A DNA stretch of 64,000 nucleotides from the NCBI RefSeq assembly GCF_032050975.1, contig NZ_CP116967.1, positions 2,601,001 through 2,665,000 on the forward strand. Reading direction: 5' to 3'. Of this stretch, positions 6,466 to 52,596 are shown one piece after another. The stretch comes from Candidatus Nitrospira allomarina. Its GTDB lineage: Bacteria; Nitrospirota; Nitrospiria; Nitrospirales; UBA8639. The first letter of the stretch is position 1; every line of letters starts with the position of its first letter. The notes beneath the pieces were generated by a model that saw only the letters and a program-made list of their open reading frames with translations, made no database searches and was not told the DNA's origin. Both the position numbers and the translations under genes were made by a program.

Positions 6466-6570
6466 GCGAATCGCTCCTTTTTATTAATGATTTCGTGATG
6501 AATAGGTGAGTAACATATGACGCTAAACTATCTATCTTATAGGACCAATTGAAGAGGCCATACTGTCAGA

Positions 6571-6578
6571 AACCCTGG
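6571..6578 (-). promoter_or_regulatory. CCAGGGTT motif upstream of katE
   Basis: Exact octamer read on the minus strand (AACCCTGG on plus), 105 bases before the katE start. TATAAG follows in the same direction. It is one of six exact copies I saw in intergenic DNA. Confidence 0.35.
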
Positions 6579-6758: not shown

Positions 6759-7325
6759 ATGATGATGCAAATTGGACAAACGATCACGGATGGCACCTAC
6801 CAGGCTTTCCACAAAGAACAAATCCGTTCACTGACCTTGTCGGAATGTCGGGGAAAGTGGTTGGTGCTGGTGTTTTATCCGGGAGATTTCACGTTTATTT
6901 ATCCAACCGAATTGCAAGAACTGGGAGAATTGTATACGGAATTTCAAAAACTCGGGGCTGAGGTTCTTAGCGTCAGCACCGATTCGGTCTTTGTGCATAA
7001 GGCCTGGCACGATACCTCGCCTGCTATAAAAAATATTCAATTCCCCATGGTAGCTGATACGACGGGCCGGCTAAGCCGGGAGTTTGGAACCTATTTGGAG
7101 GATGAAGGGGTATCGTTACGCGGGAGCTTTCTTATCGATCCGGATGGTGTGCTAAAAGTTGGAGAAATACACGATAATAGCATTGGACGAAATGGTCGAG
7201 AGCTCTTACGAAAGCTTCAGGCTGCTGTCCATGTTAGAGAAGGAAAAGGCGAGGTATGTCCCGCCAGCTGGTCCCCCGGCGATAAGACCTTGAAGCCAGG
7301 CTTGGATCTGGTCGGAAAAATTTAA
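6759..7325 (+). CDS. AhpC-like peroxiredoxin lacking the peroxidatic cysteine
   Basis: 188 residues with the full AhpC/2-Cys peroxiredoxin fold. The signature FYPxDFTFxCPTE reads FYPGDFTFIYPTE, so the catalytic Cys is Tyr48 (codon TAT at 6900-6902). The C-terminal VCP motif with the resolving-type Cys167 is kept. The surrounding motifs are well preserved (STDS, FPMVADTTGRLSREFG, RGSFLIDPDG), so the gene is not simply decaying. As written it cannot reduce peroxides by the normal thiol chemistry. It may act as a chaperone, sensor or decoy, or the base may be a recent mutation. AAAGGAGG lies ten bases before the ATG. Confidence 0.9.
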   Translation: MMMQIGQTITDGTYQAFHKEQIRSLTLSECRGKWLVLVFYPGDFTFIYPTELQELGELYTEFQKLGAEVLSVSTDSVFVHKAWHDTSPAIKNIQFPMVADTTGRLSREFGTYLEDEGVSLRGSFLIDPDGVLKVGEIHDNSIGRNGRELLRKLQAAVHVREGKGEVCPASWSPGDKTLKPGLDLVGKI

Positions 7326-11713: not shown

Positions 11714-13300
11714 TCAATCGCATGAGAGAATCAGCCCTTCATGCCCGCGCAGATCAAGACGGCCATGGATTTTATCGCCTTCCTTGTCCAGAAACGTCGA
11801 AAGACAGACCCGGGCTTGAAACGAAGTGTCCCGATCAAGTATTTGCGGTTCACCACTAAAGTTGAGTACCACCAGATGATCACCGTCGTGACTCTTTCGC
11901 AGGTAGGCCATAAGCGAGTTGTGAACATTGAGAAATTCCGGTCGCTCGTGCAAAAAGAAAGATTTGTCGTGACGGATCGCGAACAGCCGGCGATACAGAG
12001 TGAGGAGTGAGCGTGGATTCCCGCTTTGGGAGGACACGTTTGCCGTCTGAAAATCCTCTGCGATCGGGAGCCAGGGTTCCCGTGAAGAGAATCCGGCGTG
12101 GAGATCCGGGTTCCATTGCATCGGTGTGCGTTCCGGATCGCGGTTTCGCCCGGTCCTCCGGCCCTGAGGATCGATGGCCTGTTCGGCAGGAATCGGGACT
12201 CCACGCATGCCGATCTCTTCTCCATAGTACAGCACCGGGGTGCCGGGCAGCGTGAGGAGCAACATGGCTGCCACGCGCGTCAATTCTCCTTGGAGGCGCA
12301 TGGCCAACCGCAGACAATCGTGCGTGCTGAAAATCCACGAGGGCCATCCGTGAGGCGGCACATCCTGAATATAGGATTGTACCGAGCGAGCCAAATCCTC
12401 AACCGTCCACGGCGTCCACGCCAGTTTCATGGTCAATGGTAAATGCAACTCCCGTGTCTCGTTTCCGTAGTAGGCTGTCACTTGAGGCACGGGCAAATAC
12501 AGTTCACCAGCCAACATCTTGTCGTCACCGAACTCTTCCGCGACCCTGCGCATGGTGGCAACAATTTCATGGATCCCGTCCTGATCCCGTGTGTGATGCG
12601 GAAGCAATCGGCTATCCGGTCCCTGTCCGTCCTCGTACTCCGGATTTGGCGGGTTATCGCGAAACTGATCATCCTTAAGCAGCAAATCGAGAGCGTCAAT
12701 GCGAAATCCATCTACTCCTCTTTCCAGCCAGAACCGCATCGTGTCGAATAGGGCCGCCCGGACATCCGGATTCCGCCAGTTCAGGTCCGGTTGTTTGTCG
12801 AGGAACGTATGGAGGTAGAACTGTGCCGTGGTCGCGTCCCATTGCCAGACGCTGCCCCCAAAGACACTGATCCAATTATTCGGAGGGGATCCATCCGGTT
12901 TTCCGTCTCGCCACAGATACCAGTGGCGCTTGGCACTTTCTCGATTCGACCGTGAATCGAGAAACCAGGGATGCTCGTCTGACGTATGATTGGGCACCCA
13001 ATCCAGGATAATTTTGAGATTCCGGCGATGGGCTTCGGCCACCATTTCGTCAAAATCGTGCAGCGATCCAAATTTCGGCTCGACGTTTTGATAGTCGGTG
13101 ATATCGTACCCAAGGTCGGCCAGGGGGGAGGGATAAATCGGTGACAACCAAATGGCCCGGACTCCCAGCCACTCGAGGTATTCCAGGCGCCGGGTAATTC
13201 CCTGCAGATCCCCGTATCCATCTCCGTTGGTATCAAGGAAGGAAGGGACTAACAGCTGATAAATGGCACCGTCCTGCCACCAGTGCAGGGAGTCTGACAC
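11714..13300 (-). CDS. GH13 alpha-glucosidase/trehalose synthase-like enzyme
   Basis: 528 residues. The GTG at 13300 is chosen because AAAGGAGG stands six bases before it, while the longer frame from 13354 would put that site inside the coding region. The protein is a GH13 (beta/alpha)8 barrel: DWVPNHTSDEHPWF is region I, DGFRIDAL carries the nucleophile Asp, AGELYLP the acid Glu, and FSTHD the third carboxylate (usually NHD). PVLYYGEEIGM is typical of alpha-glucosidases and trehalose synthases. It acts on short alpha-glucans or disaccharides in the cytoplasm. It is divergent from the debranching enzyme at 13511, which fits joint storage-glucan turnover. Confidence 0.9.
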   Translation of the reverse strand: MSDSLHWWQDGAIYQLLVPSFLDTNGDGYGDLQGITRRLEYLEWLGVRAIWLSPIYPSPLADLGYDITDYQNVEPKFGSLHDFDEMVAEAHRRNLKIILDWVPNHTSDEHPWFLDSRSNRESAKRHWYLWRDGKPDGSPPNNWISVFGGSVWQWDATTAQFYLHTFLDKQPDLNWRNPDVRAALFDTMRFWLERGVDGFRIDALDLLLKDDQFRDNPPNPEYEDGQGPDSRLLPHHTRDQDGIHEIVATMRRVAEEFGDDKMLAGELYLPVPQVTAYYGNETRELHLPLTMKLAWTPWTVEDLARSVQSYIQDVPPHGWPSWIFSTHDCLRLAMRLQGELTRVAAMLLLTLPGTPVLYYGEEIGMRGVPIPAEQAIDPQGRRTGRNRDPERTPMQWNPDLHAGFSSREPWLPIAEDFQTANVSSQSGNPRSLLTLYRRLFAIRHDKSFFLHERPEFLNVHNSLMAYLRKSHDGDHLVVLNFSGEPQILDRDTSFQARVCLSTFLDKEGDKIHGRLDLRGHEGLILSCD

Positions 13301-13510
13301 GTCCGTTCCTCCTTTCGCATAACAAGTCTTATCAGCATTCCGGCTCTGTCTCATGAGAGAGGGACTCTGTAAGACGTTGTGTAGACCCGGTCTCCTACAA
13401 TACCAAGAGAGCGGCCATCCGCAGTTTGGCTAATTTGGAAAAGATTCGGGTGAAAATATCCGTTGATGGCGAGTGCAAAATTGTGGTTTTAAAGAGCCGA
13501 CGACCAAAAT
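13301..13510. promoter_or_regulatory. Divergent promoter region of the two glucan genes
   Basis: 210 bases between the divergent GH13 and debranching-enzyme genes. Both promoters must lie here. I see no clear operator or copy of the CCAGGGTT motif. Confidence 0.4.
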
Positions 13511-15580
13511 ATGACCGGAACTCCCGACAACAATATGATTACGCGGCGCCTGATGCGACACACAACCGGCGACGATTGGCGAAACTTTCTGATCGCCCGG
13601 GAATGGCTTGTGACCAATGGCTTAGGCGGGTACGCCTCGGGCACCTTGGCTGGAATCGCCACCCGCCGCTACCACGGATTATTTATTGCCGCACTGCCCG
13701 CTCCCCTTGGGAGGCAGATGACCTTGGCACATCTATCGGAACGTGTCCGCCTGGCAGATGGCACCCTAATCAAACTGAGCGGGGAGGCACATGACCTCCC
13801 AGATTCCTCTCCACACGGAATCGATTGCCTGACGGAATTTCGGCTTGAAATGGGGCTTCCCGTCTGGCGTTATGAATTAGCCGGCGCGACGATCGAAAAG
13901 CACATTCTTATGCCTCATCAACAAAATACCGTGCATATTATCTATCGACTGCTTCATGGGGATTCCGTCCGGTTGAAATTGATGCCATCGGTGCACAACC
14001 GTTCGCATGACGCACCAGTGAACACACCTTTGCCGGGAGTCTTTCGCTTGACAGAAGTTGAGTCAAAATATGAACTGAGCGTGTTGCCGGATCTTCCGAC
14101 GCTCCGAATGCACCTACATGGAGCTCGACAGGCATTTACCGTGAATCGCCAGACCCTGGCCGAAAGGATGTACCCGGTAGAAGAGAGTCGCGGGTATGCA
14201 GAGAGTGGAACACTCTGGTCTCCCGGTTACTTTAGAGCCGATCTTTCACAGGACCATCCTGTGTGCCTCACCGCGTCGACCGAGTCCTGGGAAGTTGTGA
14301 CGGCCTTGCCGGTTGATGAGGTTTGGCGGTTGGAACATGAGCGACGGAGACGCATCCTTGCTGCGGCACCCGAAGGGGCCCGCAGCGGGATAGGTCCGGA
14401 ACTGGTGCTGGCCGCAGACCAATTTATTATCAAGCCCGTCGGTCGTATCGCGGATTCCGCGCGAGCCAGTGCCGAGGGAGACGAAATTCGTACAATTATC
14501 GCCGGGTATCATTGGTTTACCGATTGGGGTCGGGACACCATGATCAGTTTGGAAGGTCTGGCATTGATGACAGGACGCCAGGCCGAAGCAGGGTATACCT
14601 TACGGCTGTTTGCCCATTACCTCCGCGATGGGCTGCTGCCGAACCTGTTTCCGGAAGGCGATCAACAAGGCCTCTATCATACCGCCGATGCCACCTTGTG
14701 GTTCTTTCAAGCCATAGGCCGGTATCTGGAAACCACGGGCGACATGGAGACATTGAATGTGTTACTGCCTCACCTCCAGGCAATCGCCGAACATCACCTG
14801 GACGGTACACGGTTCGGGATTCGGGTTGATCCGGAAGACGGCTTGTTACGGCAGGGGGAAGAGGGCTATCAATTAACATGGATGGATGCCAAAGTCGACG
14901 GGTGGGTCGTCACCCCGCGACGCGGCAAAGCCGTCGAGATCAATGCCCTATGGTATAACGCTCTCTGCCTCCTTGGCCAATGGGTCCGCCGGGTTAGAGG
15001 AAACACTGAGGCCGGGCAATGGGAGGCCCACGCTGAGCGCACACGGGTGTCTTTTAACCGGCGTTTTTGGTACGAACCGGGCGGTCACTTATTCGATGTG
15101 GTGGACGGTGAGCAAGGGGACGATGCGGCCTGTCGGCCCAATCAATTGCTGGCCATTTCCTTGACGCATCCTGTTCTCGATCGCCGATATTGGGACGCGG
15201 TCCTGAATATCGTTCAGGATCGCCTACTGACGCCATTCGGATTACGATCCTTATCGGCCGATCATCCCAGCTACAACGCAAAATATGATGGCAATTTGCT
15301 CGCGCGCGACGCGGCTTATCATCAAGGAACCGTATGGGCATGGCTGATCGGTCCCTTTATCGACGCGTGGCTCAAAGTGCATCCAGAGGATGTCGCAGGG
15401 GCGCGTCAATTCCTCTCAGGATTGAAAGACCATCTGAACGAAGGATGCATCGGCAGCATCAGCGAAATTTTCGATGCTGAAGCGCCCTTTACCCCACGCG
15501 GCTGTATTGCGCAAGCCTGGAGCGTAGCGGAAGTTTTGCGCTGTTGGGTCAAAACAACTCCCGACGTTCATAAGGCATAG
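13511..15580 (+). CDS. Glycogen-debranching enzyme, amylo-alpha-1,6-glucosidase type
   Basis: 689 residues of the bacterial GDB1 type. An N-terminal beta-sandwich (about 20-290) starts REWLVTNGLGGYASGT, the usual opening of this family. The (alpha/alpha)6 catalytic domain (about 310-680) contains WFTDWGRDTMISLEGL, LPNLFPEGD and AYHQGTVWAWLIGPF. It hydrolyses alpha-1,6 branch points in storage glucan in the cytoplasm. The ribosome site before 13511 is weak, and an ATG eight codons in (13535) is an alternative. Its divergent partner is the GH13 glucosidase. No glycogen synthase or branching enzyme is in the window. Confidence 0.9.
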   Translation: MTGTPDNNMITRRLMRHTTGDDWRNFLIAREWLVTNGLGGYASGTLAGIATRRYHGLFIAALPAPLGRQMTLAHLSERVRLADGTLIKLSGEAHDLPDSSPHGIDCLTEFRLEMGLPVWRYELAGATIEKHILMPHQQNTVHIIYRLLHGDSVRLKLMPSVHNRSHDAPVNTPLPGVFRLTEVESKYELSVLPDLPTLRMHLHGARQAFTVNRQTLAERMYPVEESRGYAESGTLWSPGYFRADLSQDHPVCLTASTESWEVVTALPVDEVWRLEHERRRRILAAAPEGARSGIGPELVLAADQFIIKPVGRIADSARASAEGDEIRTIIAGYHWFTDWGRDTMISLEGLALMTGRQAEAGYTLRLFAHYLRDGLLPNLFPEGDQQGLYHTADATLWFFQAIGRYLETTGDMETLNVLLPHLQAIAEHHLDGTRFGIRVDPEDGLLRQGEEGYQLTWMDAKVDGWVVTPRRGKAVEINALWYNALCLLGQWVRRVRGNTEAGQWEAHAERTRVSFNRRFWYEPGGHLFDVVDGEQGDDAACRPNQLLAISLTHPVLDRRYWDAVLNIVQDRLLTPFGLRSLSADHPSYNAKYDGNLLARDAAYHQGTVWAWLIGPFIDAWLKVHPEDVAGARQFLSGLKDHLNEGCIGSISEIFDAEAPFTPRGCIAQAWSVAEVLRCWVKTTPDVHKA

Positions 15581-18653: not shown

Positions 18654-19088
18654 ATGGATATTTATCAGGCGCTCAGAGAAGATCATCAAGAAGCTAAACA
18701 ACTATTCAGCCAAATCGAAGCCGCGGGGAAGAACAGTGATTCCCGGGAAAAACTGTTTCTCAAACTTAAGGATGCCTTGGAAGCGCATAGCGAAGCGGAA
18801 GAGCAGGTCTTCTATGCTCCCCTTCAAAAAAAGAAGGAGACAAAACAAAAAATCGAGCATGCCAACAAAGAGCACGAAAAAGTCACCACGTTGTTGAATG
18901 AAATCGAGGCAATGGATCACAATGATGAGAGTTGGTTGAAGAAGGTCACCAAACTGAAAGAAGATGTTCAACATCATATCCAGGAAGAAGAAGGCGAAAT
19001 TTTTAAGAACGCTCAGGGTATTCTTTCACAGCAACAGGCCGACCATATGGGTGAAGAATTCAAGCAGGTCAAGGAACAGAAGGTCTAG
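18654..19088 (+). CDS. Hemerythrin-type HHE cation-binding protein
   Basis: 144 residues, a four-helix HHE protein. Likely di-iron ligands are in REDHQEAKQLF, AHSEAEEQVFY, NKEHEKV and VQHHIQEEEGEIF. Such proteins bind oxygen, nitric oxide or iron in the cytoplasm, and in bacteria often belong to oxidative or nitrosative stress responses. GGGGAGGG precedes the ATG. It is followed 60 bases later by a small Cys-rich protein that may be in the same transcript. Confidence 0.9.
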   Translation: MDIYQALREDHQEAKQLFSQIEAAGKNSDSREKLFLKLKDALEAHSEAEEQVFYAPLQKKKETKQKIEHANKEHEKVTTLLNEIEAMDHNDESWLKKVTKLKEDVQHHIQEEEGEIFKNAQGILSQQQADHMGEEFKQVKEQKV

Positions 19089-22934: not shown

Positions 22935-23114
22935 CTACCATTTATCGACCCCGTTACCAATTACACGCTTCTTTTCACCGGCCTCATCGTTTCCACAAAA
23001 CCCCCGGTCTTGTTTTTTACTTTCAAGGTATTCGTACGCAAGGTAAATGGCCGCCCCCATCGCACGCTTAGGGAGAATGGGGTTGGTGTCTTCGATGTTT
23101 TCATTGATCACCAC
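22935..23114 (-). CDS. Small hypothetical protein, GTG start
   Basis: 59 residues. A GTG at 23114 follows GAGGG at about nine bases. The product reads MVINENIEDTNPILPKRAMG, then AAIYLAYEYLESKKQ, then a polar tail ending VDKW. The mix of an amphipathic helix and a charged tail is protein-like, unlike other frames here. It lies 190 bases downstream of the TPP enzyme on the same strand. The family is unknown. Confidence 0.45.
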   Translation of the reverse strand: MVINENIEDTNPILPKRAMGAAIYLAYEYLESKKQDRGFCGNDEAGEKKRVIGNGVDKW

Positions 23115-23306: not shown

Positions 23307-25058
23307 TTACACAAGTTCCCGTACCCGATCTGACAAGGCCGTCATAGCAATTTTCACCCGGTTCGGTTCGCCTCTTACCAACGATTCCGCAAATTTGGCG
23401 GCTTGGCTCATCGTAATGTTGGCAGGCATCGGAGGTTCAAAAGGATCGACGATGGCTTGTACCAATACCGGCCCCGGTGTTTGGAAGGCCTGGTCGATGA
23501 TGGAACCACAATCCGCAGGATCGTCAACGGTTAGTCCGGTTCCTCCGCATGCCTGAGCGACGAGGGCAAAGTCGATGGGATGCAGTTCGCACCCATATTC
23601 GGGATTTCCTAGAAACACCATCTGTTCCCACTTAATCTGGCCAAGCGTATTGTTTTTGATGACGAACACTTTCACGGGCAATTGATATTTGACACAGGTG
23701 GCGAACTCAGCCATGAGCATCGAAAAACCCCCATCTCCCACAAAGGCGATACATTGACGATCCGGATAGGCGATTTGTGCGGCAATTGCATAGGGTAAGC
23801 CACAGGCCATGGAGGCCAGGGTGCCGGATACCGTGTGCTTCTGCCCTCGTTTGGCCGGGATTTGCCTGGCCCACCAGGTCGTGATTGTTCCCGAATCACA
23901 GGAAACGATGGCGTGGTCAGAAAGACGTTTACCGAGTTCCCAGGCCACCACCTGGGGTTTCATGGGTTTGTCTTTTCGAGTTCCGCGTTCTTCCATCAAT
24001 GTCCGCCATTTGGCCATTGCCGTTTGTGCCCGTTCCAAAAATTTCCGGTGTTTATTCCGTTGCAACATCGGCAAGAGCTCCTGGAGGGTTTTTCGGCAGC
24101 CGCCAACCAAGCCGACTTCCACCGGGTACCGCAGCCCGATTCGCGCCGGATCAAGATCGATCTGGACGGCCCGGGCCTGTCCGGGCTTGGGATAAAATTC
24201 CATATAGGGAAAGGACGTTCCGATCAGAAGCAGGGTATCGCAATCCTCCAGGGCCTCCTGAGAGGGTGCGGTTCCCAGCAATCCGATGCCCCCCGTTGTA
24301 TAGGGACTGTCATCAGGCACCGAGGCTTTGCCTAACAACGGTTTAATAATCGGGGCTCCAAGAGTCTCTGCTAATTGTTCCAATTCATCTGTGGCCTCAA
24401 GTGCCCCGGCTCCGGCCATAATGGCAATCCGTTTTCCGACATTCAGCACTTCTGCGGCTTCATACAGGTCCGACTCATTGGGCAGGCGGGCGCTACGGGA
24501 AAAAACCTCCATCGAATGGTGCGGAATGTTTCGTTGGGAGTAGCCTTTGTCGGCTTTTGTTTCCTGAAGATCCACCGGGAAATTAATATGAGCCACCCCA
24601 CGATATCCCAGGGCGGTCCGACATGCGAGATCCACCACATTTTCAAGATGTGTCGCGCTCATCACGCGGGTGTTATAGACCGAGACATCTTCAAAGACTC
24701 TGGTGAGATCGACATCCTGTTGGGCATGGGTATCAATCAAATCGTGAAAATGATGACCGGTAATAGCCAGTACCGGTTGTTTCTCCATTTTGGCATCATA
24801 CAAACCATTCAGCAGATGAAGCCCTCCAGGCCCTGATGTGGCCAGGCACACGCCAAGCTTTCCCGTGTATTTAGCATACCCGCATGCCATCCAGGCCGCT
24901 GATTCTTCGTGGCGCACCTGTATGAACCTCATCACTTCTTTGCGTTGCCGCAGAGCTTCCATAATTCCATTAATGCCGTCTCCGGGAAGACCGAATATGA
25001 CCTCTACCCCCCAATTTTGAAGCTTCTCTATCAACACGTCCGCGGCGGTTTTTGTCAT
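23307..25058 (-). CDS. Thiamine-diphosphate enzyme, pyruvate oxidase-like
   Basis: 583 residues, close to E. coli PoxB. The N-terminal pyrimidine-binding domain has the catalytic Glu in RHEESAAWMA. The central domain is about 190-340. The C-terminal domain has the Mg-TPP motif GDGGFSMLMAEF...NN. Related enzymes decarboxylate pyruvate to acetate (with FAD and quinone) or form other acyl products. The exact reaction is uncertain, although the ordering GLPGDGINGIMEAL and SGPGGLHLLNGLYDA is typical of PoxB. GAGGAA precedes the ATG. It is the last gene of a four-gene operon with the ASRT protein (54-base gap). Confidence 0.85.
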   Translation of the reverse strand: MTKTAADVLIEKLQNWGVEVIFGLPGDGINGIMEALRQRKEVMRFIQVRHEESAAWMACGYAKYTGKLGVCLATSGPGGLHLLNGLYDAKMEKQPVLAITGHHFHDLIDTHAQQDVDLTRVFEDVSVYNTRVMSATHLENVVDLACRTALGYRGVAHINFPVDLQETKADKGYSQRNIPHHSMEVFSRSARLPNESDLYEAAEVLNVGKRIAIMAGAGALEATDELEQLAETLGAPIIKPLLGKASVPDDSPYTTGGIGLLGTAPSQEALEDCDTLLLIGTSFPYMEFYPKPGQARAVQIDLDPARIGLRYPVEVGLVGGCRKTLQELLPMLQRNKHRKFLERAQTAMAKWRTLMEERGTRKDKPMKPQVVAWELGKRLSDHAIVSCDSGTITTWWARQIPAKRGQKHTVSGTLASMACGLPYAIAAQIAYPDRQCIAFVGDGGFSMLMAEFATCVKYQLPVKVFVIKNNTLGQIKWEQMVFLGNPEYGCELHPIDFALVAQACGGTGLTVDDPADCGSIIDQAFQTPGPVLVQAIVDPFEPPMPANITMSQAAKFAESLVRGEPNRVKIAMTALSDRVRELV

Positions 25059-25111: not shown

Positions 25112-25492
25112 TTACGAATGGTCGGTATATGCCATGGTAGACAGGAGAGCATTCTCGGCCTGTCGGGAATCCAGCCTGGTGTGTTGCAATACAATTGGCA
25201 CATCGGACTCGAACATGCTTGCGAAATCTGTATCCCTGGGTATGGGTTCAGGGTCTTCCAAATCATTAAAACGGATATGACTCGTTCGACGAGGGGGGAC
25301 GGTGATATGATAGGGCCCCACCGGGTCCCGGTCTGTATAAAAAATTGTGACAAGCACATGCGCCGGATCGTCGGAAACATTCAAGAGGCATGCGGTTTCA
25401 TGACTCGTCATCTGCGGCTCCGGTCCATGGCTTTCCGCAGGGATATATCCTTCAGGAATAGCCCATCGTTTAGCCCCCATGGATTGACTCAT
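25112..25492 (-). CDS. Sensory rhodopsin transducer (ASRT) family protein
   Basis: 126 residues, matching the Anabaena sensory rhodopsin transducer family nearly end to end: WAIPEGYIPAESHGPEPQ, VGPYHITVPPRRTSHIRFND, IPRDTDFASMFESDVPIV and QHTRLDSRQAENALLST. ASRT is a small soluble beta-sandwich tetramer that binds sensory rhodopsin in Anabaena. Most homologues occur without a rhodopsin, as here, and may bind carbohydrate. The start at 25492 is fixed by the ATGA overlap with the upstream 59-residue gene. Its operon partners are a sugar-type oxidoreductase and a TPP enzyme, which points to a metabolic role rather than light sensing. Confidence 0.9.
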   Translation of the reverse strand: MSQSMGAKRWAIPEGYIPAESHGPEPQMTSHETACLLNVSDDPAHVLVTIFYTDRDPVGPYHITVPPRRTSHIRFNDLEDPEPIPRDTDFASMFESDVPIVLQHTRLDSRQAENALLSTMAYTDHS

Positions 25493-25668
25493 GACATTAT
25501 GTCTTCTTCTGCGGAAGTTCCTTGAGCTTTTCCAACATGTCCTTGCCGATGGCGACGTTCCCATTCCCTATCTAATGCCGCCTCAACAAGATAGGAAGGT
25601 AAAGACGGATCGATATTTTCCGAGGAATGTGACCCTTGAGAACCAATGGTGTTCGACTGTTCATTCAT
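25489..25668 (-). CDS. 59-residue protein translationally coupled to ASRT
   Basis: ATG at 25668 (AAAGGAAAGG upstream); its TGA overlaps the ASRT start (ATGA). The product begins MNEQSNTIGSQGSHSS, is disordered and polar at first, and then has a helix (YLVEAALDREWERRHR). The tight overlap and the conserved-looking helix support a real gene. The family is unknown. It could be a partner or regulator of the ASRT protein. Confidence 0.6.
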   Translation of the reverse strand: MNEQSNTIGSQGSHSSENIDPSLPSYLVEAALDREWERRHRQGHVGKAQGTSAEEDIMS

Positions 25669-25716
25669 TGAATAAATTCCTTTCCTTTTATTTATAGGAT
25701 GAATGAAAATGGTTCA

Positions 25717-26850
25717 TCACGATCCTGAGGGACTCTGAGCATGGATGAGTCGGGGCTTTTTAACCGGCGGACGGCGAAGGCTTTGCCGAAGCGTTGGACG
25801 CCGTTTTCGCTCCACGCCTTTGAGCGGGACCGGTTGGCCTTTGTGGGCTGAACGATACAGAGCTTCGATAATGCGGACATCATGGAGACCCTCATCACCT
25901 GCCGGTTCAGGAACCGTATCATTTACAATGCAATCCGAAAATTTCAAAAGTTGTGGAGCAAATTGATCACGTTTGGAAAAGGTGTGCTTGTTCTCTTTCC
26001 CGTTCACCGTAAGGTAATGAGTAATGGGGTCGACATATTCGTAGGCCGATGTCACCCGCAGTTGCCCCTTGGTCCCCACAATCCGAAACTCGGAAACGTC
26101 AGCGGCTCCAAAACTACAGATGAAGGTGGCCAACCGATCATCGGGAAATTGAAGCGTCACCGCGCTCATTTCTTCCACTTCGTCGAATCTGCCGGTACCC
26201 TGTCCGGCGGTGTGGGCAAATACCTGAATAGGTTCCGCCTGAAATAGATTCCGGGCGGCATTCACACAATAAATGCCGATATCCCACAGCGTTCCTCCAC
26301 CGGTCTCTTCCCGTAACCGGATATTATTTTTATCTTTGACCGGAAGGCTAAATGCAGATTGAAAGTACCGGGGTGTGCCGATTTTCCCTGATTGAACCAT
26401 TTGTATGGCCCGAAGGTTGGCCTCTTCAAAATGAAGCCGATAGGCGACCATTAATTTGACATCATGATGGTCCGCTGTGCGAATCATGGTTTCACATTCC
26501 TTGACTGATAAGGCCATGGGTTTTTCGCACAATACATGGACGCCCGCTTTGGCAGCTCTGATGGTATATTCGCAGTGCAAATGATTGGGAAGCGCAATAT
26601 ACACCGCATCAATTTCTTCCTTTTCCAGGCATTCTTCATATTGTTCATAGGAATAGAGACCGTTGATGCCGTATTTTTTTCCCAATTCCTTCAATTTTTT
26701 GGGATCATCGGAGATTAAAGCTGCCAATGCCGAGTTTTTCTTTGCATGTCCAAATGCCGGAAGTACGGCGACTTGAGCGATATAACCCAATCCCACCACC
26801 GCGTAACGAATTTTCCTGGTGGGAAATGTCCTTTTGAGCGATCGTGCCAT
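25717..26850 (-). CDS. Gfo/Idh/MocA family oxidoreductase
   Basis: 377 residues. The N-terminal Rossmann domain starts YAVVGLGYIAQVAVLPAF, and the catalytic signature CEKPMAL follows at about 110. The C-terminal alpha/beta domain contains GGGTLWDIGIYCVNAARNLF, as in glucose-fructose oxidoreductases. It probably oxidises or epimerises a sugar or cyclitol with NAD(P). The C-terminal 35 residues are Arg/Pro/Lys-rich and unusual. AAGGAG precedes the ATG. It is the first gene of the operon, and a CCAGGGTT site (26942-26949) lies 91 bases upstream and points toward it. Confidence 0.9.
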   Translation of the reverse strand: MARSLKRTFPTRKIRYAVVGLGYIAQVAVLPAFGHAKKNSALAALISDDPKKLKELGKKYGINGLYSYEQYEECLEKEEIDAVYIALPNHLHCEYTIRAAKAGVHVLCEKPMALSVKECETMIRTADHHDVKLMVAYRLHFEEANLRAIQMVQSGKIGTPRYFQSAFSLPVKDKNNIRLREETGGGTLWDIGIYCVNAARNLFQAEPIQVFAHTAGQGTGRFDEVEEMSAVTLQFPDDRLATFICSFGAADVSEFRIVGTKGQLRVTSAYEYVDPITHYLTVNGKENKHTFSKRDQFAPQLLKFSDCIVNDTVPEPAGDEGLHDVRIIEALYRSAHKGQPVPLKGVERKRRPTLRQSLRRPPVKKPRLIHAQSPSGS

Positions 26851-26941
26851 CTGGGAGCTCCTTGAAATCGTGTCAAAAGAGTAAGACCGACCAATTACCT
26901 AAAGCTTGTATCAGCGTTTTTATCGAAAATGAACTGGAAAG

Positions 26942-26949
26942 AACCCTGG
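26942..26949 (-). promoter_or_regulatory. CCAGGGTT motif upstream of the Gfo/Idh operon
   Basis: Exact octamer on the minus strand within the palindrome GAACCagGGTTC, about 91 bases before the oxidoreductase start. GATAAAAACG follows downstream in the same direction. Confidence 0.35.
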
Positions 26950-27038: not shown

Positions 27039-27071
27039 AACGGGAAAAAGCCCAGATGGCTTTTTCCCGTT
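27039..27071 (-). terminator. Hairpin after the PRC-barrel gene
   Basis: AACGGGAAAAAGCC (27039-27052) pairs with GGCTTTTTCCCGTT (27058-27071) as a perfect 14-bp stem with a 5-base loop. It begins about 20 bases after the stop of the PRC-barrel gene. The run of T inside the stem could help pausing on either strand. Confidence 0.65.
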
Positions 27072-29097: not shown

Positions 29098-30042
29098 TTA
29101 TATTTTTTTCAGGACCACCCTCTGCAATAAAGATTCAATTTGGCGTCGGGTGGGATAGGAAGATTGGGAGCCATAACCGGTGACAGCGTGGGTTGAGGCG
29201 GCAACCGCATATACGGCGGCTTGCTCTGGTGGTTGATGTTCCAACATCGCCACACTGAAAGCTCCCGCAAACGCATCACCCGCTCCGGTGGTGTCCACCG
29301 CGTGGACCTCCGGAGCGGATATGACAAACTGGTCATCCGCCGTGGCAATTGCGCATCCCCCTGTTCCCAATTTGACACAAACTCCTTTATTTCCGTGTTG
29401 TCTAATTCTCGAAGCCGCTTCCAACGCGTGGTCATGATTTTCAATTGGGATTTTTGTCAATCGCTGAGCCTCTGATTGGTTGGGAGTCAAATAGCAGCCG
29501 GATTTCAATAATTCCTCATCCAATCTCTCAGACGGTGAAGGATCCAGGACAATGACCATTCCACATTCCTCAGCTTGTCGAACTGCCTGCTTGACAATGG
29601 GCAGGGGGACTTCCAAATCCACAGACAATACGGATCCGGTTGGAGCCGTGTGTATGGCGTTTTTGACAAACTCTTCATCCTCTTCGGACCAGACGGCATT
29701 GGCATTCGGTGCCATGATTATCCCTTTTCGGCCGTTTGGTTGAACCATGATGACTGACACTCCTGTGGATTCATTTTTAATACTTCGGATAGTGGATAAA
29801 TCGACCCCAAGTGTCCGTAAGGGGTGAAGGGCGATTTCCTGAAGGGAATCAGATCCAATACGAGCAATCAATTGAGCCTCGATGCCCAGATTGCGGGCTA
29901 GCCAGGCCACATTGGCGGCCTTTCCTCCACCAGCCATAAGAAAATCCTGACCCAATAGTGTTTCCCCCGCTTCCGGCCAGCGATCCGCACGAAGTTGGAT
30001 ATCTACATTCACGCTTCCCAGGGATATGATTCGAGCGCTCAT
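29098..30042 (-). CDS. PfkB-family sugar kinase, ribokinase-like
   Basis: 314 residues of the ribokinase fold. GGGKAANVAWLARNLG is the N-terminal substrate signature, and DTTGAGDAFAGAF is the ATP/catalytic signature with the base Asp. It phosphorylates a sugar or nucleoside in the cytoplasm. Its start overlaps the stop of the GH65 phosphorylase by four bases. Co-translation suggests it acts on the free sugar released by that phosphorylase. The usual partner, beta-phosphoglucomutase, is absent here. Confidence 0.9.
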   Translation of the reverse strand: MSARIISLGSVNVDIQLRADRWPEAGETLLGQDFLMAGGGKAANVAWLARNLGIEAQLIARIGSDSLQEIALHPLRTLGVDLSTIRSIKNESTGVSVIMVQPNGRKGIIMAPNANAVWSEEDEEFVKNAIHTAPTGSVLSVDLEVPLPIVKQAVRQAEECGMVIVLDPSPSERLDEELLKSGCYLTPNQSEAQRLTKIPIENHDHALEAASRIRQHGNKGVCVKLGTGGCAIATADDQFVISAPEVHAVDTTGAGDAFAGAFSVAMLEHQPPEQAAVYAVAASTHAVTGYGSQSSYPTRRQIESLLQRVVLKKI

Positions 30043-32420
30043 AAAGGAAAATCCTGTTGTGTCGGTGTTCCAAAAACATGGCGTGTTCCACGAACGTTGA
30101 TGACGAGAGGAAAGCTCGGTCCTGCAGATACGTCAAGACGCAGGCTTTTTGGGGAAATTTGCACCTTGATGTGATGTTGTCGAAACTGAACCTTCATCGC
30201 TAACCCCTCAAGGGTTTCCGGAAGACGAGGGTTCACCGTTAACACATTATTTTCACAATCAATTCCACCATAGCAACGTTGCATGAGATCAATGGTTCCT
30301 GCCATGGCTCCTAAATGGATGCCTTCGCCCGTCGATCCTCCCTGGATGTCATGAACATCCTGTCCCAAGGCCTCAGCCAGACAATTCCATGAGCCGCTTC
30401 TGTCGGAACGCGCGTGAATCCAGCCAAACACGACGCGACTGAGCGTCGAACCATGCGTGGTGCGTTGTTGATAATAAGCGATATTCTTTTGCAGCAGTTT
30501 GAGAGAAAACGGATATCCCAAATTCGAAAAGATTGATTCGAGTTCGGTCACGGTCAGGAGATAGCACAACATGAGGACATCAGGCTGTTTGGAAATCTTG
30601 TACCGATTAACCGCATCTCCTTCGGCTTCGAGAATTTGATCGATTCGCCGGATATCTTTGTACCGGGCTTGATACGCGTTCACATCCAATTCGTGAAGTT
30701 TTTCATAACCCGCGAATTGGCTGATGAGATCGTCCTCATGATAAGGGACGAACATCTGGCGGGTGATGTTCTCCCAATGTTCCAGGTCCGTGTGATCAAT
30801 TGAAAGAATTTCCATCAGTTGTTGGCGCGAATAGTCGGGGAGAATCTGAAGAACCTGTCGGGCGCATTGCAGGGTCCAAACAGCCATGACATTGGTATAC
30901 GCATTGTCTTGAAGTCCGGGCGTGGGGCTATCCGGATATCCGGTATGAAATTCATCGGGTCCCATGACCCCGCGAATATGATATTGCCCGCTCATGGCAT
31001 CGAGTGTTGCCAGACTGGACCAGAATCGGGCGATTTGAAGTGTGAGCAGTCCGCCGTGGGACTGAAGAAATTCCAGGTCAGCTGTTGCCTGATAGTATTT
31101 CCATATTTGATAGACAATGGCGGCATTCTGATGGCATTGCAGATGGGTATGGTCCTCAATCCAATGGTGGGAATAGGGGTTCCATTGAAATCGGGGAGTT
31201 TGCTCGGAGCCGTCACTGCCACTTCTCCAGGGAAACCGGATGCCCTGAAGCCCATGCTGCTGTGCCTGAGCTCCGGCTTGCTGTTGACGTCGTGACCGAT
31301 ACAGGAGCATGGCGCGGGCAACCCGGGGCACTCGCATAATCAGAAACGGTAAGGCAAATACATCATCCCAGAATATGTGGCCTTGATACATTTCGCCGGT
31401 TAACCCTCTTGCCGGAAGGCTCGCATCGAGGTCTGTCAGATGGGGAGAAGCCGTTTGCAGGAGATGAAAGAGGTGGAGACGGAGCATCAATTGATCCTCC
31501 GGACGGTTTTGAATCCGGATGTCGGTCATATCCCAGATCCGCTCCCATGCTTTTTGATGGGAGCGAAGCAACTGTTCGAACGATCCGGCTGAAGCCAGGC
31601 TGTGATGCACGGCCTCAAGCGGCTCGGAAATGCCACGGTCGCGTGAATGGTACAGTGCGACGGTTTTGTCAACCTGTAGGGGAGTTTGCTCTTGAATATC
31701 AAGAACAAATTCTTCGATGGTCATATCCATTTCTTGAAGATTCCGTTGAAGGAGGAGGTTGCCGCCTGAGACTTGCGTTCGAAGTCCTTGGGCCAGCCGA
31801 ATGTGAGATTGGAGGGTTTCCGTGACGGCATAGAGCCATCCCTGCTGATGGAATCCCGAGTCGAGCAATCGAAAATGTTTGGCGTTCATCTCCCGATACC
31901 GTTCAACATTCCCATTGCTGATCATGGAATCCAAGGCCGATCTCACATGCAATCGACCAGCCCAGTTCAGGGGAATAATGGTCCATTGTAGGGCTGCAAT
32001 ATGGGGATGCTCCATATGCACCATCCTGATGGATTGGAGGATGGTTTCTCGTCCTTTAGGTTCCGTAAATTGTATGTACCGGCTGAGCACCCCCCGTTGC
32101 AGGTCCAATTCCTGGCGATAGATATGTACCTGAACCTGGTCCATCGAAAACCATTGGCCATTATCCATGGCATATGTCAGGTACAGCCAATTGGGCCAGT
32201 TTACGATCGTTTCATGAGAGACCGTTTCTCCCGCGATGATTCTTTCGCATCGATCATAGACGCCGGCTATATAGGTTCCGGGATAATGGCCGTGGTCTTG
32301 TGTGGCTTCTTCACACGCTCCTCGTGTGGCCCAATACCCGTTACCCAGTGTGCAGATTGCTTCACGGGCTTGTTGGTTTTTGATATCCCAATTGTCAAAT
32401 ATCAGTTTCCACTCATTCAT
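30039..32420 (-). CDS. GH65 disaccharide phosphorylase (trehalose/maltose/kojibiose type)
   Basis: 793 residues. GH65 (alpha/alpha)6 enzymes split an alpha-glucobiose with phosphate to beta-glucose 1-phosphate plus glucose. The general acid Glu lies in VMGPDEFHTGY. The substrate-site block is GHIFWDDVFALPFLI, and the phosphate-binding Ser/Thr loop THGSTLSR is intact, which favours phosphorylase over hydrolase. The N-terminal beta-sandwich is about 1-250 and the small C-terminal sheet is about 735-793. The disaccharide cannot be named. It is followed by the PfkB kinase and preceded by the alpha/beta hydrolase (61-base gap). Confidence 0.88.
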   Translation of the reverse strand: MNEWKLIFDNWDIKNQQAREAICTLGNGYWATRGACEEATQDHGHYPGTYIAGVYDRCERIIAGETVSHETIVNWPNWLYLTYAMDNGQWFSMDQVQVHIYRQELDLQRGVLSRYIQFTEPKGRETILQSIRMVHMEHPHIAALQWTIIPLNWAGRLHVRSALDSMISNGNVERYREMNAKHFRLLDSGFHQQGWLYAVTETLQSHIRLAQGLRTQVSGGNLLLQRNLQEMDMTIEEFVLDIQEQTPLQVDKTVALYHSRDRGISEPLEAVHHSLASAGSFEQLLRSHQKAWERIWDMTDIRIQNRPEDQLMLRLHLFHLLQTASPHLTDLDASLPARGLTGEMYQGHIFWDDVFALPFLIMRVPRVARAMLLYRSRRQQQAGAQAQQHGLQGIRFPWRSGSDGSEQTPRFQWNPYSHHWIEDHTHLQCHQNAAIVYQIWKYYQATADLEFLQSHGGLLTLQIARFWSSLATLDAMSGQYHIRGVMGPDEFHTGYPDSPTPGLQDNAYTNVMAVWTLQCARQVLQILPDYSRQQLMEILSIDHTDLEHWENITRQMFVPYHEDDLISQFAGYEKLHELDVNAYQARYKDIRRIDQILEAEGDAVNRYKISKQPDVLMLCYLLTVTELESIFSNLGYPFSLKLLQKNIAYYQQRTTHGSTLSRVVFGWIHARSDRSGSWNCLAEALGQDVHDIQGGSTGEGIHLGAMAGTIDLMQRCYGGIDCENNVLTVNPRLPETLEGLAMKVQFRQHHIKVQISPKSLRLDVSAGPSFPLVINVRGTRHVFGTPTQQDFPL

Positions 32421-34364: not shown

Positions 34365-34372
34365 CCAGGGTT
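34365..34372 (+). promoter_or_regulatory. CCAGGGTT motif upstream of the DUF2892-type gene
   Basis: Exact octamer on the plus strand, 108 bases before the start at 34480. A second, inverted near match (AACCCTGA) stands 22 bases upstream at 34343-34350, so the pair faces both divergent genes. Confidence 0.35.
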
Positions 34373-34479
34373 TTTGTTAGTTGTTGACTCTTTTGTCTTT
34401 CCGTATCTTCGGAAAGACACAGAGCGATCGCCCACGGCATGGGAGTGCGTCGTTCCACAGAACAAAATGGAGGCCATAT

Positions 34480-34968
34480 ATGATTACTTCAGCAACGACC
34501 ACACGAGTTGAGGAACATACCGACGCTGACATCAATGAGGAAATTTATAACCGCACAAAAAATAACGTCCTGTTGTATGCCTCGGCCGGACCTTCGGCCA
34601 TTGATCGACGGTTAAGGGAGCTAGAGATGGAATGGGATATCGAAAGAGTTTTGGAAGCCAATGCTGCCTCGTTTTCCCTCATGGGTCTGACACTGGGCGC
34701 GTTTATTGATCGACGGTGGTTCATATTTCCCGCCGCCGTAGCCGGTTTTCTCCTGCAACATGCTATACAGGGTTGGTGCCCGCCGGTTCCCCTGTTCCGG
34801 CGAATGGGAATACGGACCGCACATGAGATTCAACAGGAGCGTCATGCGTTAAAGGCATTGCGGGGAGATTATCGGGATGTGGCCGAATTCAAGGCCGAAG
34901 TCAATGGGGCGGACGCTCTGCAGGTGACTCGAGCATTTGAGGCGGCCGGAAATAACTCCTCCTCCTGA
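34480..34968 (+). CDS. DUF2892 (YgaP-like) membrane protein
   Basis: 162 residues from the ATG at 34480 (GGAGG upstream). A polar N-terminus of about 60 residues precedes a membrane hairpin (FSLMGLTLGAFID, FIFPAAVAGFLLQHAIQGW) and the typical CPPVPLFRRMGIRTAHEI end of this family. Proteins of this type often accompany rhodanese or sulfur genes, and here an MBL/rhodanese gene follows 42 bases later. Confidence 0.75.
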   Translation: MITSATTTRVEEHTDADINEEIYNRTKNNVLLYASAGPSAIDRRLRELEMEWDIERVLEANAASFSLMGLTLGAFIDRRWFIFPAAVAGFLLQHAIQGWCPPVPLFRRMGIRTAHEIQQERHALKALRGDYRDVAEFKAEVNGADALQVTRAFEAAGNNSSS

Positions 34969-38455: not shown

Positions 38456-39886
38456 TTATGGTCGATATCCATCAGGTCGATAATCATAATCCTTCCCGCT
38501 GGAACGCCGGGATTGATACTGATCGGCCCCCTGCCTCTGAGGATCATACTGCCTTCTTGAGGTGGTGGTATTGTACCGGTCAGCCGACCGATCTTTGGAA
38601 TCCTGGTAATTCCGTTCACGACTTTGAGAATACATGGACCGCTGATTTCCGCGATTCCGGTCTTCCCCCTCATCGTAGTCCCGTGTGTTTGACCGGGACT
38701 GGTTCCGATAGTTCCCACGATCCCGGTTGCTTCGGTTATAGGAATTTTGCTGATCAGCCCCTTCATACTGAAAGGCACGATCATGAGGAGGGAACTCGGT
38801 CGGGCTGAAACTGTCTCTTCTTGTTCGAAAATCCTCCGCATTTTGATCCTGGTACTGCCGTTGTCGGTCATCTCCGGAGCGGCTCATCCGCGACCGATCG
38901 GAATCGTATCGGTCATAGCCTTTCCGATTCCCTTCAAATGTGGGCGTATCCTCATAATACCGATCGCGATCGGAATAGAATTGATCAAGATTTTCATTCC
39001 ATTTTGCTAAATTCTTTCGTTGCTCTTCGGTTAAATCCCAATGTTTTTGGACGTGTGCCCCGGCATTTTCCCCCTCTTCCAGAATAGGAAGATTGCCGAT
39101 TTGATTCTGAGTCACTTTCAGCTTAAAGGACTTATTGCCGGATCCTTCCAGGGCCTGCCATGGAACCGAAATTAATTGTCCATCTGCTTTTCTCACGATG
39201 GCATAGGTCAGATCTCCATTATTGTTCGTCATCACTCGATACACACTTCCGATTTCCTGGCCATCAGAGGATTTAACCGAATAATTGGCATCCTTGTCGG
39301 AAATATCCAGGCCGCCTAATTGACCGGCCGGGAGGACAAAATAGTCATCTCCCATTCTTCCGGCATTAAAATAATTTTCGTCGTTTTGGCCCATCGATCG
39401 GACAAAGGTGGCCTTCCCATCTTCATCGATTTTCGCCTTGACCAATTCTCCCTTTTCAAAATTACACTCGCCAAATGTAAATCCGGCCTTGGAAGAACTT
39501 TCCTGCGACCCCGATGAAGTCTGACTTGAGCCCTGCCCGCTTGCACTTCCGAACAGACTGCTACTTGAAGTTTGTTCCGTGCTTGATGAATCCTGACTTG
39601 AGGATTCTTGACTCATCTTGGATGTCTTCCCTTGTGGACACAATCGGTTGGTTTCGCCAGTAATGCGAAATGTAATGCGTTCTCCATTACTGGCGCGAAG
39701 GGTGATTTGGTCGCCGTTCTTCTTTGAAATTTCTCCCTGGATGATTTGTTCCATGGCATTTGTCCGGCCCGATTCCGACCGATCCGATCGATCGCGTGAC
39801 ATGCCGGCTTCGGCCAATAACGGTAATGTCAGCAATGGAATGCCGGCAAGAATGACTGATCTGGCCATGTTGTTCCGCGTGAACAT
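38456..39886 (-). CDS. Exported PRC-barrel protein with Arg/Asp/Tyr-rich tail
   Basis: 476 residues. Signal peptide to about 28 (LLTLPLLAEAG). Residues 45-80 are an OB-like strand set (QGEISKKNGDQITLR). A Ser/Gln-rich linker is at about 90-135. A PRC-barrel is at about 190-265 (SVKSSDGQEIGSVYRVM ... ISVPWQAL). The last 160 residues are a strongly biased RDxR/Ser/Tyr/Gln tail without order. Such tails can condense or bind polyanions. GGAGGTG precedes the ATG by about ten bases. A CCAGGGTT site at 39977-39984 points toward this gene. Function unknown. Confidence 0.75.
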   Translation of the reverse strand: MFTRNNMARSVILAGIPLLTLPLLAEAGMSRDRSDRSESGRTNAMEQIIQGEISKKNGDQITLRASNGERITFRITGETNRLCPQGKTSKMSQESSSQDSSSTEQTSSSSLFGSASGQGSSQTSSGSQESSSKAGFTFGECNFEKGELVKAKIDEDGKATFVRSMGQNDENYFNAGRMGDDYFVLPAGQLGGLDISDKDANYSVKSSDGQEIGSVYRVMTNNNGDLTYAIVRKADGQLISVPWQALEGSGNKSFKLKVTQNQIGNLPILEEGENAGAHVQKHWDLTEEQRKNLAKWNENLDQFYSDRDRYYEDTPTFEGNRKGYDRYDSDRSRMSRSGDDRQRQYQDQNAEDFRTRRDSFSPTEFPPHDRAFQYEGADQQNSYNRSNRDRGNYRNQSRSNTRDYDEGEDRNRGNQRSMYSQSRERNYQDSKDRSADRYNTTTSRRQYDPQRQGADQYQSRRSSGKDYDYRPDGYRP

Positions 39887-39976
39887 AATGTGGCACCTCC
39901 TTTTACAAAGTTAAAAATTTGTACAGTGATTACTTTCCTCAGGATAATTGATTTATGCACCCGTACAACTGGAGAA

Positions 39977-39984
39977 AACCCTGG
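39977..39984 (-). promoter_or_regulatory. CCAGGGTT motif between the divergent PRC genes
   Basis: Exact octamer on the minus strand in AAACCagGGTTT symmetry, 91 bases before the start at 39886 and followed by CATAAAT in that direction. A looser AAGGGTTTGTC on the plus strand (about 40012) faces the other PRC gene. Confidence 0.35.
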
Positions 39985-40098
39985 TTTGGGAATCCTCTTT
40001 TACAAGGGTTTGTCCCAGTTTGGTCATGTAGAAAGAACATGTAATATCCCGTCAGATTGTTTCTTTTATTATCCATGCCGGTCCACAAGGAGGGTGTT

Positions 40099-40458
40099 AT
40101 GACCACTAAAATTCGTCAGGTTCTTTCATCAAGTTCTATTGTCGGTACCACGGTCCAGAATATGGGAAGAGAAGACCTGGGAGAGATTAAAGATCTTATG
40201 ATCGACCTCTCAGGCGGACGCATTGCCTATGCGGTGTTATCGTTCGGCGGATTTTTAGGAATGGGAGATAAACTTTTTGCGATTCCCTGGGAGGCATTTC
40301 AGGTCGTACAAGAGGAGGAAGTGTTGTTATTAAATGTGGCAAAGGAAAAGTTGGAACAGGCTCCCGGTTTTGACAAAGATAACTGGCCTGATATGGCGGA
40401 TGTCACCTGGGGAAAAAGTATCCATGCCTATTATGGTTATGACCCTTATTGGGATTAA
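40099..40458 (+). CDS. PRC-barrel domain protein (YlmC/YmxH-like)
   Basis: 119 residues from the ATG at 40099, preceded by AAGGAGGG at good spacing. Barrel stretches are IVGTTVQNMGREDLGEIKDL, GGRIAYAVLSFGGF, DKLFAIPWEAFQV and EEVLLLNV. The C-terminus is polar with His and Tyr (HAYYGYDPYWD). It has no signal peptide, so it is cytoplasmic, unlike the other PRC genes nearby. It is divergent from the exported PRC gene. Confidence 0.8.
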   Translation: MTTKIRQVLSSSSIVGTTVQNMGREDLGEIKDLMIDLSGGRIAYAVLSFGGFLGMGDKLFAIPWEAFQVVQEEEVLLLNVAKEKLEQAPGFDKDNWPDMADVTWGKSIHAYYGYDPYWD

Positions 40459-52578: not shown

Positions 52579-52596
52579 GCGTTTATCCGGCAACAA

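Follow-up and report, generated by a model that had tools for sequence, protein, structure and literature searches.

Proteins of the family named after the Anabaena sensory rhodopsin transducer (ASRT) were proposed by De Souza et al. 2009 (PMC2739507) to act as sensors of small molecules, probably sugars, in rhodopsin-free bacteria. That study defined the SHExxCxxN signature of the family, described the His/Cys-lined pocket of TM1070 and reported, among the neighbours of ASRT genes, those for pyruvate decarboxylase/oxidase, dehydratase/racemase and flavin adenine dinucleotide (FAD) oxidoreductase. Here, we analyse a stretch of 64,000 nucleotides from Candidatus Nitrospira allomarina (contig NZ_CP116967.1, positions 2,601,001 to 2,665,000; hereafter ‘the window’, with its own numbering) that contains an ASRT gene in a predicted operon of four. 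A first-pass annotation of the window had tied this rhodopsin-free ASRT to sugar and pyruvate enzymes. That description is borne out, with a Gfo/Idh/MocA oxidoreductase (GFO) and a thiamine pyrophosphate (TPP) enzyme of the pyruvate oxidase/PoxB group (POX) in the operon and the rhodopsin domain PF01036 absent; as an idea, the rhodopsin-free sugar sensor is not new, having been largely published in 2009 (PMC2739507). The new element, which the annotation missed and the text of PMC2739507 does not contain, is the apparent placement of ASRT in stress regulons, by different promoter motifs in two unrelated bacterial groups.

The operon resembles the ASRAH neighbourhoods (De Souza, Iyer and Aravind 2009, PMC2739507) in its solo intracellular ASRT with the SHExxCxxN signature, its rhodopsin-free host and its adjoining gene of the pyruvate decarboxylase/oxidase type, but adds genes for GFO and a 59-amino-acid protein and is without the enolase-like and FAD oxidase genes. 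With the Anabaena sensory rhodopsin/ASRT operon it has ASRT in common (about 69% identical), whereas it has no rhodopsin and other partners. E. coli PoxB (pyruvate:quinone oxidoreductase; 3ey9, E 4e-103), representing the bacterial pyruvate oxidases, is the best solved homologue of POX and shares its three domains, yet POX belongs to a separate TPP-enzyme subfamily. The nearest solved relatives of GFO are aldose-aldose (5a02) and glucose-fructose oxidoreductases. Outside Anabaena, the function of ASRT is putative, despite solved homologues and many annotated copies. On balance, we favour a module of sugar and pyruvate oxidation, induced by stress or starvation, with ASRT as its ligand-binding regulator.

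The operon and its proteins

The four genes lie on the minus strand between 26850 and 23307, in the order GFO, 59-amino-acid gene, ASRT, POX:

25717-26850, minus strand: GFO, Gfo/Idh/MocA oxidoreductase, 377 amino acids, first operon gene (PF01408, 9e-31)
25489-25668, minus strand: gene of the 59-amino-acid protein, its stop overlapping the ASRT start (ATGA); without Pfam match
25112-25492, minus strand: ASRT, 126 amino acids (PF07100, 6.4e-55)
23307-25058, minus strand: POX, TPP enzyme of the pyruvate oxidase/PoxB group, 583 amino acids, three TPP-enzyme domains
27039-27071, minus strand: intrinsic terminator of the upstream PRC-barrel gene, with a perfect 14-bp stem

Gaps of 48 bases (GFO to the 59-amino-acid gene) and 53 bases (ASRT to POX) and the 4-base ATGA overlap agree with the four co-oriented, closely spaced genes of the first-pass annotation, which had covered 25112-26850, an interval outside which POX falls. 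Since the terminator closes the upstream PRC-barrel unit, GFO opens what we predict to be a four-gene operon.

The mechanically called open reading frame (ORF) of ASRT begins at 25564; the ATG at 25492 is preferred because it gives the ATGA overlap with the 59-amino-acid stop and agrees with the family start. The protein matches the whole PF07100 domain (184.7 bits, profile positions 1-118 of 119), and its pocket signature, SHETACLLN, is intact (S30, H31, E32, C35 and N38, plus W10), so the nearly full set of family motifs claimed earlier is indeed there. Its predicted single-chain model, with a confidence score (pLDDT) of 84.4, is a beta-sandwich (Z 16.4-17.0 to 2ii7/1nc7); beyond ASRT/TM1070, the next neighbours in fold belong to carbohydrate-binding modules (Z <=6.4), a range of common beta-sandwiches too weak to be used. 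A rhamnose-operon role based on Thermotoga TM1070 was dropped: in the literature searched, TM1070 is named only in PMC2739507 and one fold survey, and a search joining ‘rhodopsin transducer’ with rhamnose and operon found nothing. In the ASRT tree, the position of the Anabaena protein is poorly settled. One ASRT clusters with Nitrospira sequences although its contig bears the label uncultured Nitrosospira, and this metagenome-assembled genome (MAG) may be misbinned.

GFO has the N-terminal Rossmann and C-terminal domains of its family above cut-off (PF01408, PF22725 and PF02894), and its top NCBIfam model, under its cut-off, is the D-xylose 1-dehydrogenase Gfo6. POX has all three TPP-enzyme domains (Pfam), with closest homology to pyruvate oxidases. 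The 59-amino-acid ORF, with the core PSYLxEAxLDREWERRHR, is by comparative evidence a real gene, because it is found in all seven same-genus genomes with the operon (the window’s counted) and its nonsynonymous rate (dN) is below its synonymous rate (dS) in 20/20 computable pairs (21 pairs, seven genomes). In another genus of the same family (genome G027), a diverged 71-amino-acid ORF with a similar core, EAELDKDWERQY, replaces it.

The name of the family and the high identity to Anabaena ASRT, and nothing else, would favour a role in light signalling with a rhodopsin or other photoreceptor encoded elsewhere. A profile search with PF01036, however, found no rhodopsin in the operon or in the 4.55-Mb single-contig genome, which extends to the whole genome the earlier statement that the window is free of one, and none in the 21 Nitrospirales ASRT genomes searched, this and 20 others (the 22nd, G082, was left out). 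The control set of a first search had held no positives; repeated in a genome set that gave them, the same search was positive in 6/66 ASRT genomes, including those of haloarchaea, a Rubrobacter MAG and Tistlia. The host therefore has no rhodopsin detectable by this profile, whether in the operon or elsewhere in its genome. The accessible part of PMC3198991 also regards the pair of Anabaena sensory rhodopsin and ASRT as peculiar to Anabaena. A light-signalling role here is thus extremely improbable.

Candidate stress promoters

Upstream of GFO, the window’s genome and seven relatives have in common a box, C[ACT]AGGGTT-N5-CAGTT, that recurs elsewhere in the window:

26932-26949, minus strand: box CCAGGGTTCTTTCCAGTT, 82 bases upstream of GFO, kept in 7/7 aligned relatives
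6561-6578, minus strand: box upstream of the large catalase gene 4336-6465
39967-39984, minus strand: box before gene 38456-39886, which matches PRC-barrel weakly, recurring before its counterparts in loci L028 and L030
40003-40020, plus strand: box upstream of PRC-barrel gene 40057-40458
34365-34382, plus strand: weaker box upstream of conserved gene 34381-34968, recurring before its counterparts in L028, L029 and L129
23171-23188, minus strand: weaker box downstream of POX, 57 bases before a possible small ORF, 22935-23114
1965-1982: candidate box

The true start of gene 34381-34968 is probably further in. A regular expression that held the distal element of the box fixed gave no matches, and a weight matrix was used instead. 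Trained on the GFO sites of the seven relatives, with the window’s site excluded, it ranked that site first in the window, followed by those of gene 38456-39886, PRC-barrel gene 40057-40458, gene 57645-58565 and the catalase; five of the six non-self matches above 14 bits lie within 200 bases upstream of a same-strand gene (P 7e-5). A slightly shorter matrix (>16 bits) gave 7 matches in the window vs 0.4 in order-1 random sequence, and 30 vs 0.25 across 12 family loci, where GFO sites make up 6 of the 30 and training sites 5 of those 6; the reversed matrix gave 0 and 2, respectively. Elsewhere, another Nitrospirales family yielded 13 matches over 447 kb and other phyla 1 over 259 kb, and the densities per 100 kb are 15.2 in the window’s family, 2.9 in the other Nitrospirales family and 0.4 in other phyla.

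The family matches mostly stand 57-117 bases before gene starts, those of GFO, catalase-like (as in L028), GAPDH-like and CBS-domain-like genes (the last read from first residues) among others. In the other Nitrospirales family, the variant CTAGGGCTTTGCCCAGTTCA and close forms occur 100-109 bases before a 116-amino-acid gene situated between GFO and POX in six POX-ASRT cluster loci; in genome G036, where GFO and POX are unlinked, the box precedes both. At 11/41 sites, a TATAAT-like hexamer follows 20-21 bases downstream, which would place the box over the -35 region. In it, two half-sites of the GTT type, ten bases apart, recall the direct repeats bound by activators of the OmpR/PhoB type. The operon, catalase and PRC-barrel genes of the window’s family thus have a predicted promoter-proximal box in common, which we infer to be a candidate activator site and which provides a candidate stress-regulon box for the Nitrospirales.

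Could ASRT itself be the protein that acts on DNA, regulating its own operon or other genes as a transcription regulator rather than controlling an enzyme? The accessible part of PMC8660804 reports DNA binding and looping by Anabaena ASRT, together with a raised reporter signal and contacts at R109, Q110 and N113, and the equivalents R110, Q111 and N114 are kept in 12/12 aligned sequences. The same part of that source, however, gives an affinity of about 10 uM and a weak sequence dependence, random DNA being looped better than the promoter, and the Thermotoga homologue is without the R-Q-N triad. Moreover, the box precedes many other genes and is present in the ASRT-less genome G031 (L116), which makes it no obvious ASRT site. 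We regard a DNA-binding role as unlikely, if the least unlikely of the alternatives to a ligand-binding regulator of the module.

In Alphaproteobacteria, the general stress regulon is that of EcfG (RpoE2), whose published motif, GGAAC-N17-20-GTT, is enriched within 100 bases of gene starts according to the accessible parts of the sources (PMC6599016; see also PMC7083833). The window’s organism belongs to the Nitrospirota, not the Alphaproteobacteria, and its box differs in sequence. An initial inspection of 12 alphaproteobacterial loci revealed GGAAC-N-CGTT-like sites directly before ASRT. In the full set, the EcfG motif occurs at most 100 bases from the ASRT start in 14/26 loci, whereas 1.0% of windows in the background have it (P 7e-22, uncorrected for kinship), split evenly between the first loci (7/12) and those fetched after the idea arose (7/14); close relatives among them (L076/L077, L085/L088, L082/L158/L164) make the independent cases fewer. 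The narrow form GGAAC-N16-CGTT precedes 3/26 ASRT genes vs 0.17% of background. Among the other genes of loci longer than 8 kb, 7/179 have the motif (15/179 when each gene may begin at any of its first eight possible starts), and these seven include one Ku-like gene and the POX of both L069 and L084. Indeed, 4 of the 12 loci with a motif-less ASRT (L069, L084, L155 and L160) have the motif 64-101 bases before a divergent POX, which brings the loci with a motif before ASRT or POX to 18/26; in L092, it precedes an SDR gene instead. Judged by these matches, most alphaproteobacterial loci have EcfG-type stress promoter motifs before ASRT or its POX.

These counts leave out four re-fetched loci (L146, L152, L153 and L156), a fragment (L150) and the additional ASRT copies, about 43% identical, that rhizobia and one sphingomonad carry and which have the motif in 0/6 rows, some representing the same gene twice. 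Outside the Alphaproteobacteria, it was found in 2/60 loci, two near-identical ones of Nitrospirota with the match inside the 59-amino-acid gene, and was taken as chance. An Ensifer Ku-like gene near ASRT bears an EcfG-type motif. On pSymB of Sinorhizobium meliloti, POX is followed by ASRT in the vicinity of a treS-like gene, and a motif of the EcfG type stands 58 bases before ASRT. Comparison of the locus tags of this unannotated region with published regulon lists found passing mentions and no tie. Literature searches linking ‘rhodopsin transducer’ with ‘general stress response’, or ‘sensory rhodopsin transducer’ with ‘pyruvate oxidase’, found nothing within a corpus from which supplements and most subscription papers were beyond reach. 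Placement in a stress regulon points to stationary phase and osmotic or oxidative stress as conditions for study, and S. meliloti is a genetically tractable host carrying both POX and ASRT.

Co-occurrence of ASRT with POX and other enzymes

Among 117 Nitrospirales genomes, ASRT is found in 22, the POX subfamily in 31, GFO in 25 and the enolase-like dehydratase in 8, the window’s genome having none of the last. The POX subfamily was taken as sequences of at least 57% identity, the next matches being at most 39%, save a broken 63% fragment in a genome already counted. POX is present in 22/22 ASRT genomes vs 9/95 others (Fisher 6e-17, kinship ignored) and GFO in 20/22 vs 5/95; within the window’s genus alone, ASRT occurs in 7/8 POX genomes vs 0/12 others (P 1e-4). 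As all 22 ASRT genomes and all 8 dehydratase genomes have POX, the latter looks like the hub and ASRT like an optional partner. The Halomonadaceae present the same picture: of 151 genomes, 6 have ASRT and 29 have POX (28 with matches at E <= 1e-130, plus a draft genome in which the gene is divided between two contigs), and all six with ASRT have POX (P 3e-5, kinship ignored), linked to it at about 5.4 kb in the five where contigs permit. In two unrelated clades, then, the presence of ASRT, as read from genome content, depends on that of POX.

Gene order is less constant. The first-pass annotation had expected the four-gene order to be kept in relatives, and this holds in 7/7 same-genus ASRT genomes (one broken by a contig end within POX) and in one genome of a second genus, G027 (GFO, 71-amino-acid ORF, ASRT, POX), but is confined to the window’s family. 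A further Nitrospirales family has POX and ASRT adjoining in the opposite order in eight genomes, with GFO within about 7 kb in 7/8, and in 6 of the 22 ASRT genomes (G036, G038, G055, G091, G098 and G107) POX lies away from the ASRT locus. Beyond the window’s family, we therefore reject the idea of a constant four-gene unit that includes ASRT; it is the POX-ASRT pair that recurs across phyla. At one POX locus of G036, the enolase-like gene is cut and the GFO copy is interrupted by three in-frame stops, and an intact GFO is found elsewhere in that genome.

Adjacency by chance or through shared mobility, with no common function, would fit the patchy distribution of ASRT (22/117) and one ASRT branch that looks horizontally acquired, the sequences of L034 and L036 grouping with one from Rubrobacter (support 82/69, not starred). 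The POX-ASRT pair nevertheless survives reordering, from GFO-59aa-ASRT-POX to POX-ASRT with GFO kilobases away, and ASRT and POX co-occur even when unlinked, which leaves this explanation very improbable.

Across phyla, we compared 66 ASRT loci (71 fetched plus the window, minus the six duplicates L044-L047, L056 and L057). Their neighbours include POX (31), GFO (16, all Nitrospirota), SDR (15), enolase-like genes (13), GH15 with a trehalase-type N-terminal domain (10) and a YdiJ-like FAD/Fe-S oxidase (8), and by our reading of the locus maps 48/66 have at least one sugar-type partner. In 45 further ASRT genomes, one POX at E <= 1e-100 was found in 21, in 16 of these at the ASRT locus. Fuller clusters occur on plasmids of Nitrobacter hamburgensis (GMC, gluconate 2-dehydrogenase subunit 3, enolase-like gene, TPP enzyme, ASRT) and Croceicoccus (GH15, SDR, GMC, gluconate 2-dehydrogenase subunit 3, TPP enzyme, ASRT), and in the relatives G017 and G027 enolase-like and YdiJ-like genes extend an operon of the window’s type. 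Given these clusters, the window’s operon is, on gene content, a reduced or alternative form of a broader sugar-oxidation module.

This company bears on whether ASRT might be an enzyme of the pathway or one of its accessory subunits (for example, catalysing a step of the lactonase or mutarotase kind, or serving as a POX subunit) instead of a sensor. The cross-phyla neighbours GMC, SDR, gluconate 2-dehydrogenase subunit 3 and the enolase-like and YdiJ-like proteins amount to a sugar-acid oxidation set, and the nearly invariant polar residues of the family (R55, R69, H72, R74, N76, D108 and R110) exceed the apparent needs of a plain binding domain. Set against this are the next fold matches, the carbohydrate-binding modules mentioned above, and four Nitrospirales genomes that have POX and GFO together without ASRT. 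An enzymatic role is, to our mind, distinctly unlikely.

Three further observations concern individual neighbourhoods. On a conjugative Klebsiella pneumoniae plasmid (L162), ASRT stands beside a sugar MFS transporter, an SDR, a GntR regulator and an enolase-family gene, flanked by insertion sequence elements. On a Sphingobium plasmid (L161), an ectoine synthesis operon and MarR regulators adjoin ASRT. Genes for LigD and/or Ku lie near ASRT in L035, L037-L042, L060, L069 and L082 (Nitrospirota, Novosphingobium and Ensifer).

Proposed function and genomic setting

In the sugar and pyruvate oxidation module that we favour, the operon would be induced under stress or starvation. GFO would oxidize an intracellular sugar or sugar derivative, an aldose, and POX pyruvate or a related 2-oxo acid, feeding the respiratory chain. 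ASRT, presumably a small tetrameric beta-sandwich, would most likely bind a sugar-type ligand in its His/Cys-lined pocket and tune the module at the protein level, via POX or its neighbours; the 59-amino-acid protein may also have a role in the module.

Several findings weigh against this scheme. The best NCBIfam model of POX, PRK08273, describes an uncharacterised TPP-requiring protein and is matched under its cut-off, so that pyruvate is a presumed substrate. ASRT is missing from 9 of the 31 Nitrospirales POX genomes, hence POX does not need ASRT; conversely, 24 of the 45 further ASRT genomes have no POX that was found at the stated threshold, hence POX cannot be the sole partner of ASRT. 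As for regulation, the ASRT locus of G036 (L034) is without the box, 12/26 alphaproteobacterial ASRT genes are without the EcfG motif, and the gene starts from which distances were taken are predicted. Finally, genomes and loci are related, and the counts overstate the number of independent events.

More tentatively, and with somewhat less confidence than we give the module itself, ASRT may be a stress-metabolism protein in several phyla, placed under unrelated stress regulators (EcfG in Alphaproteobacteria and a putative activator of CAGGGTT-N5-CAGTT in Nitrospirales), where it would read a carbohydrate signal and gate a PoxB-like enzyme. The pairing with rhodopsin in Anabaena would then be a late recruitment, which we infer only, the position of Anabaena ASRT in the tree being unsettled.

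The window as a whole (1-64000) looks like an island of stress and storage-carbohydrate genes. It has three PRC-barrel genes and, beyond the operon, the following features, the first two of which are neighbouring but separate from it:

29098-30042, minus strand: PfkB sugar kinase
30039-32420, minus strand: GH65 family enzyme (disaccharide phosphorylase type)
4336-6465: large catalase (Pfam)
6759-7325: AhpC
11714-13354: alpha-amylase-family gene
13511-15580: glycogen debranching enzyme
18654-19088: hemerythrin
49709-51160: G6PDH
51688-52596: MscS

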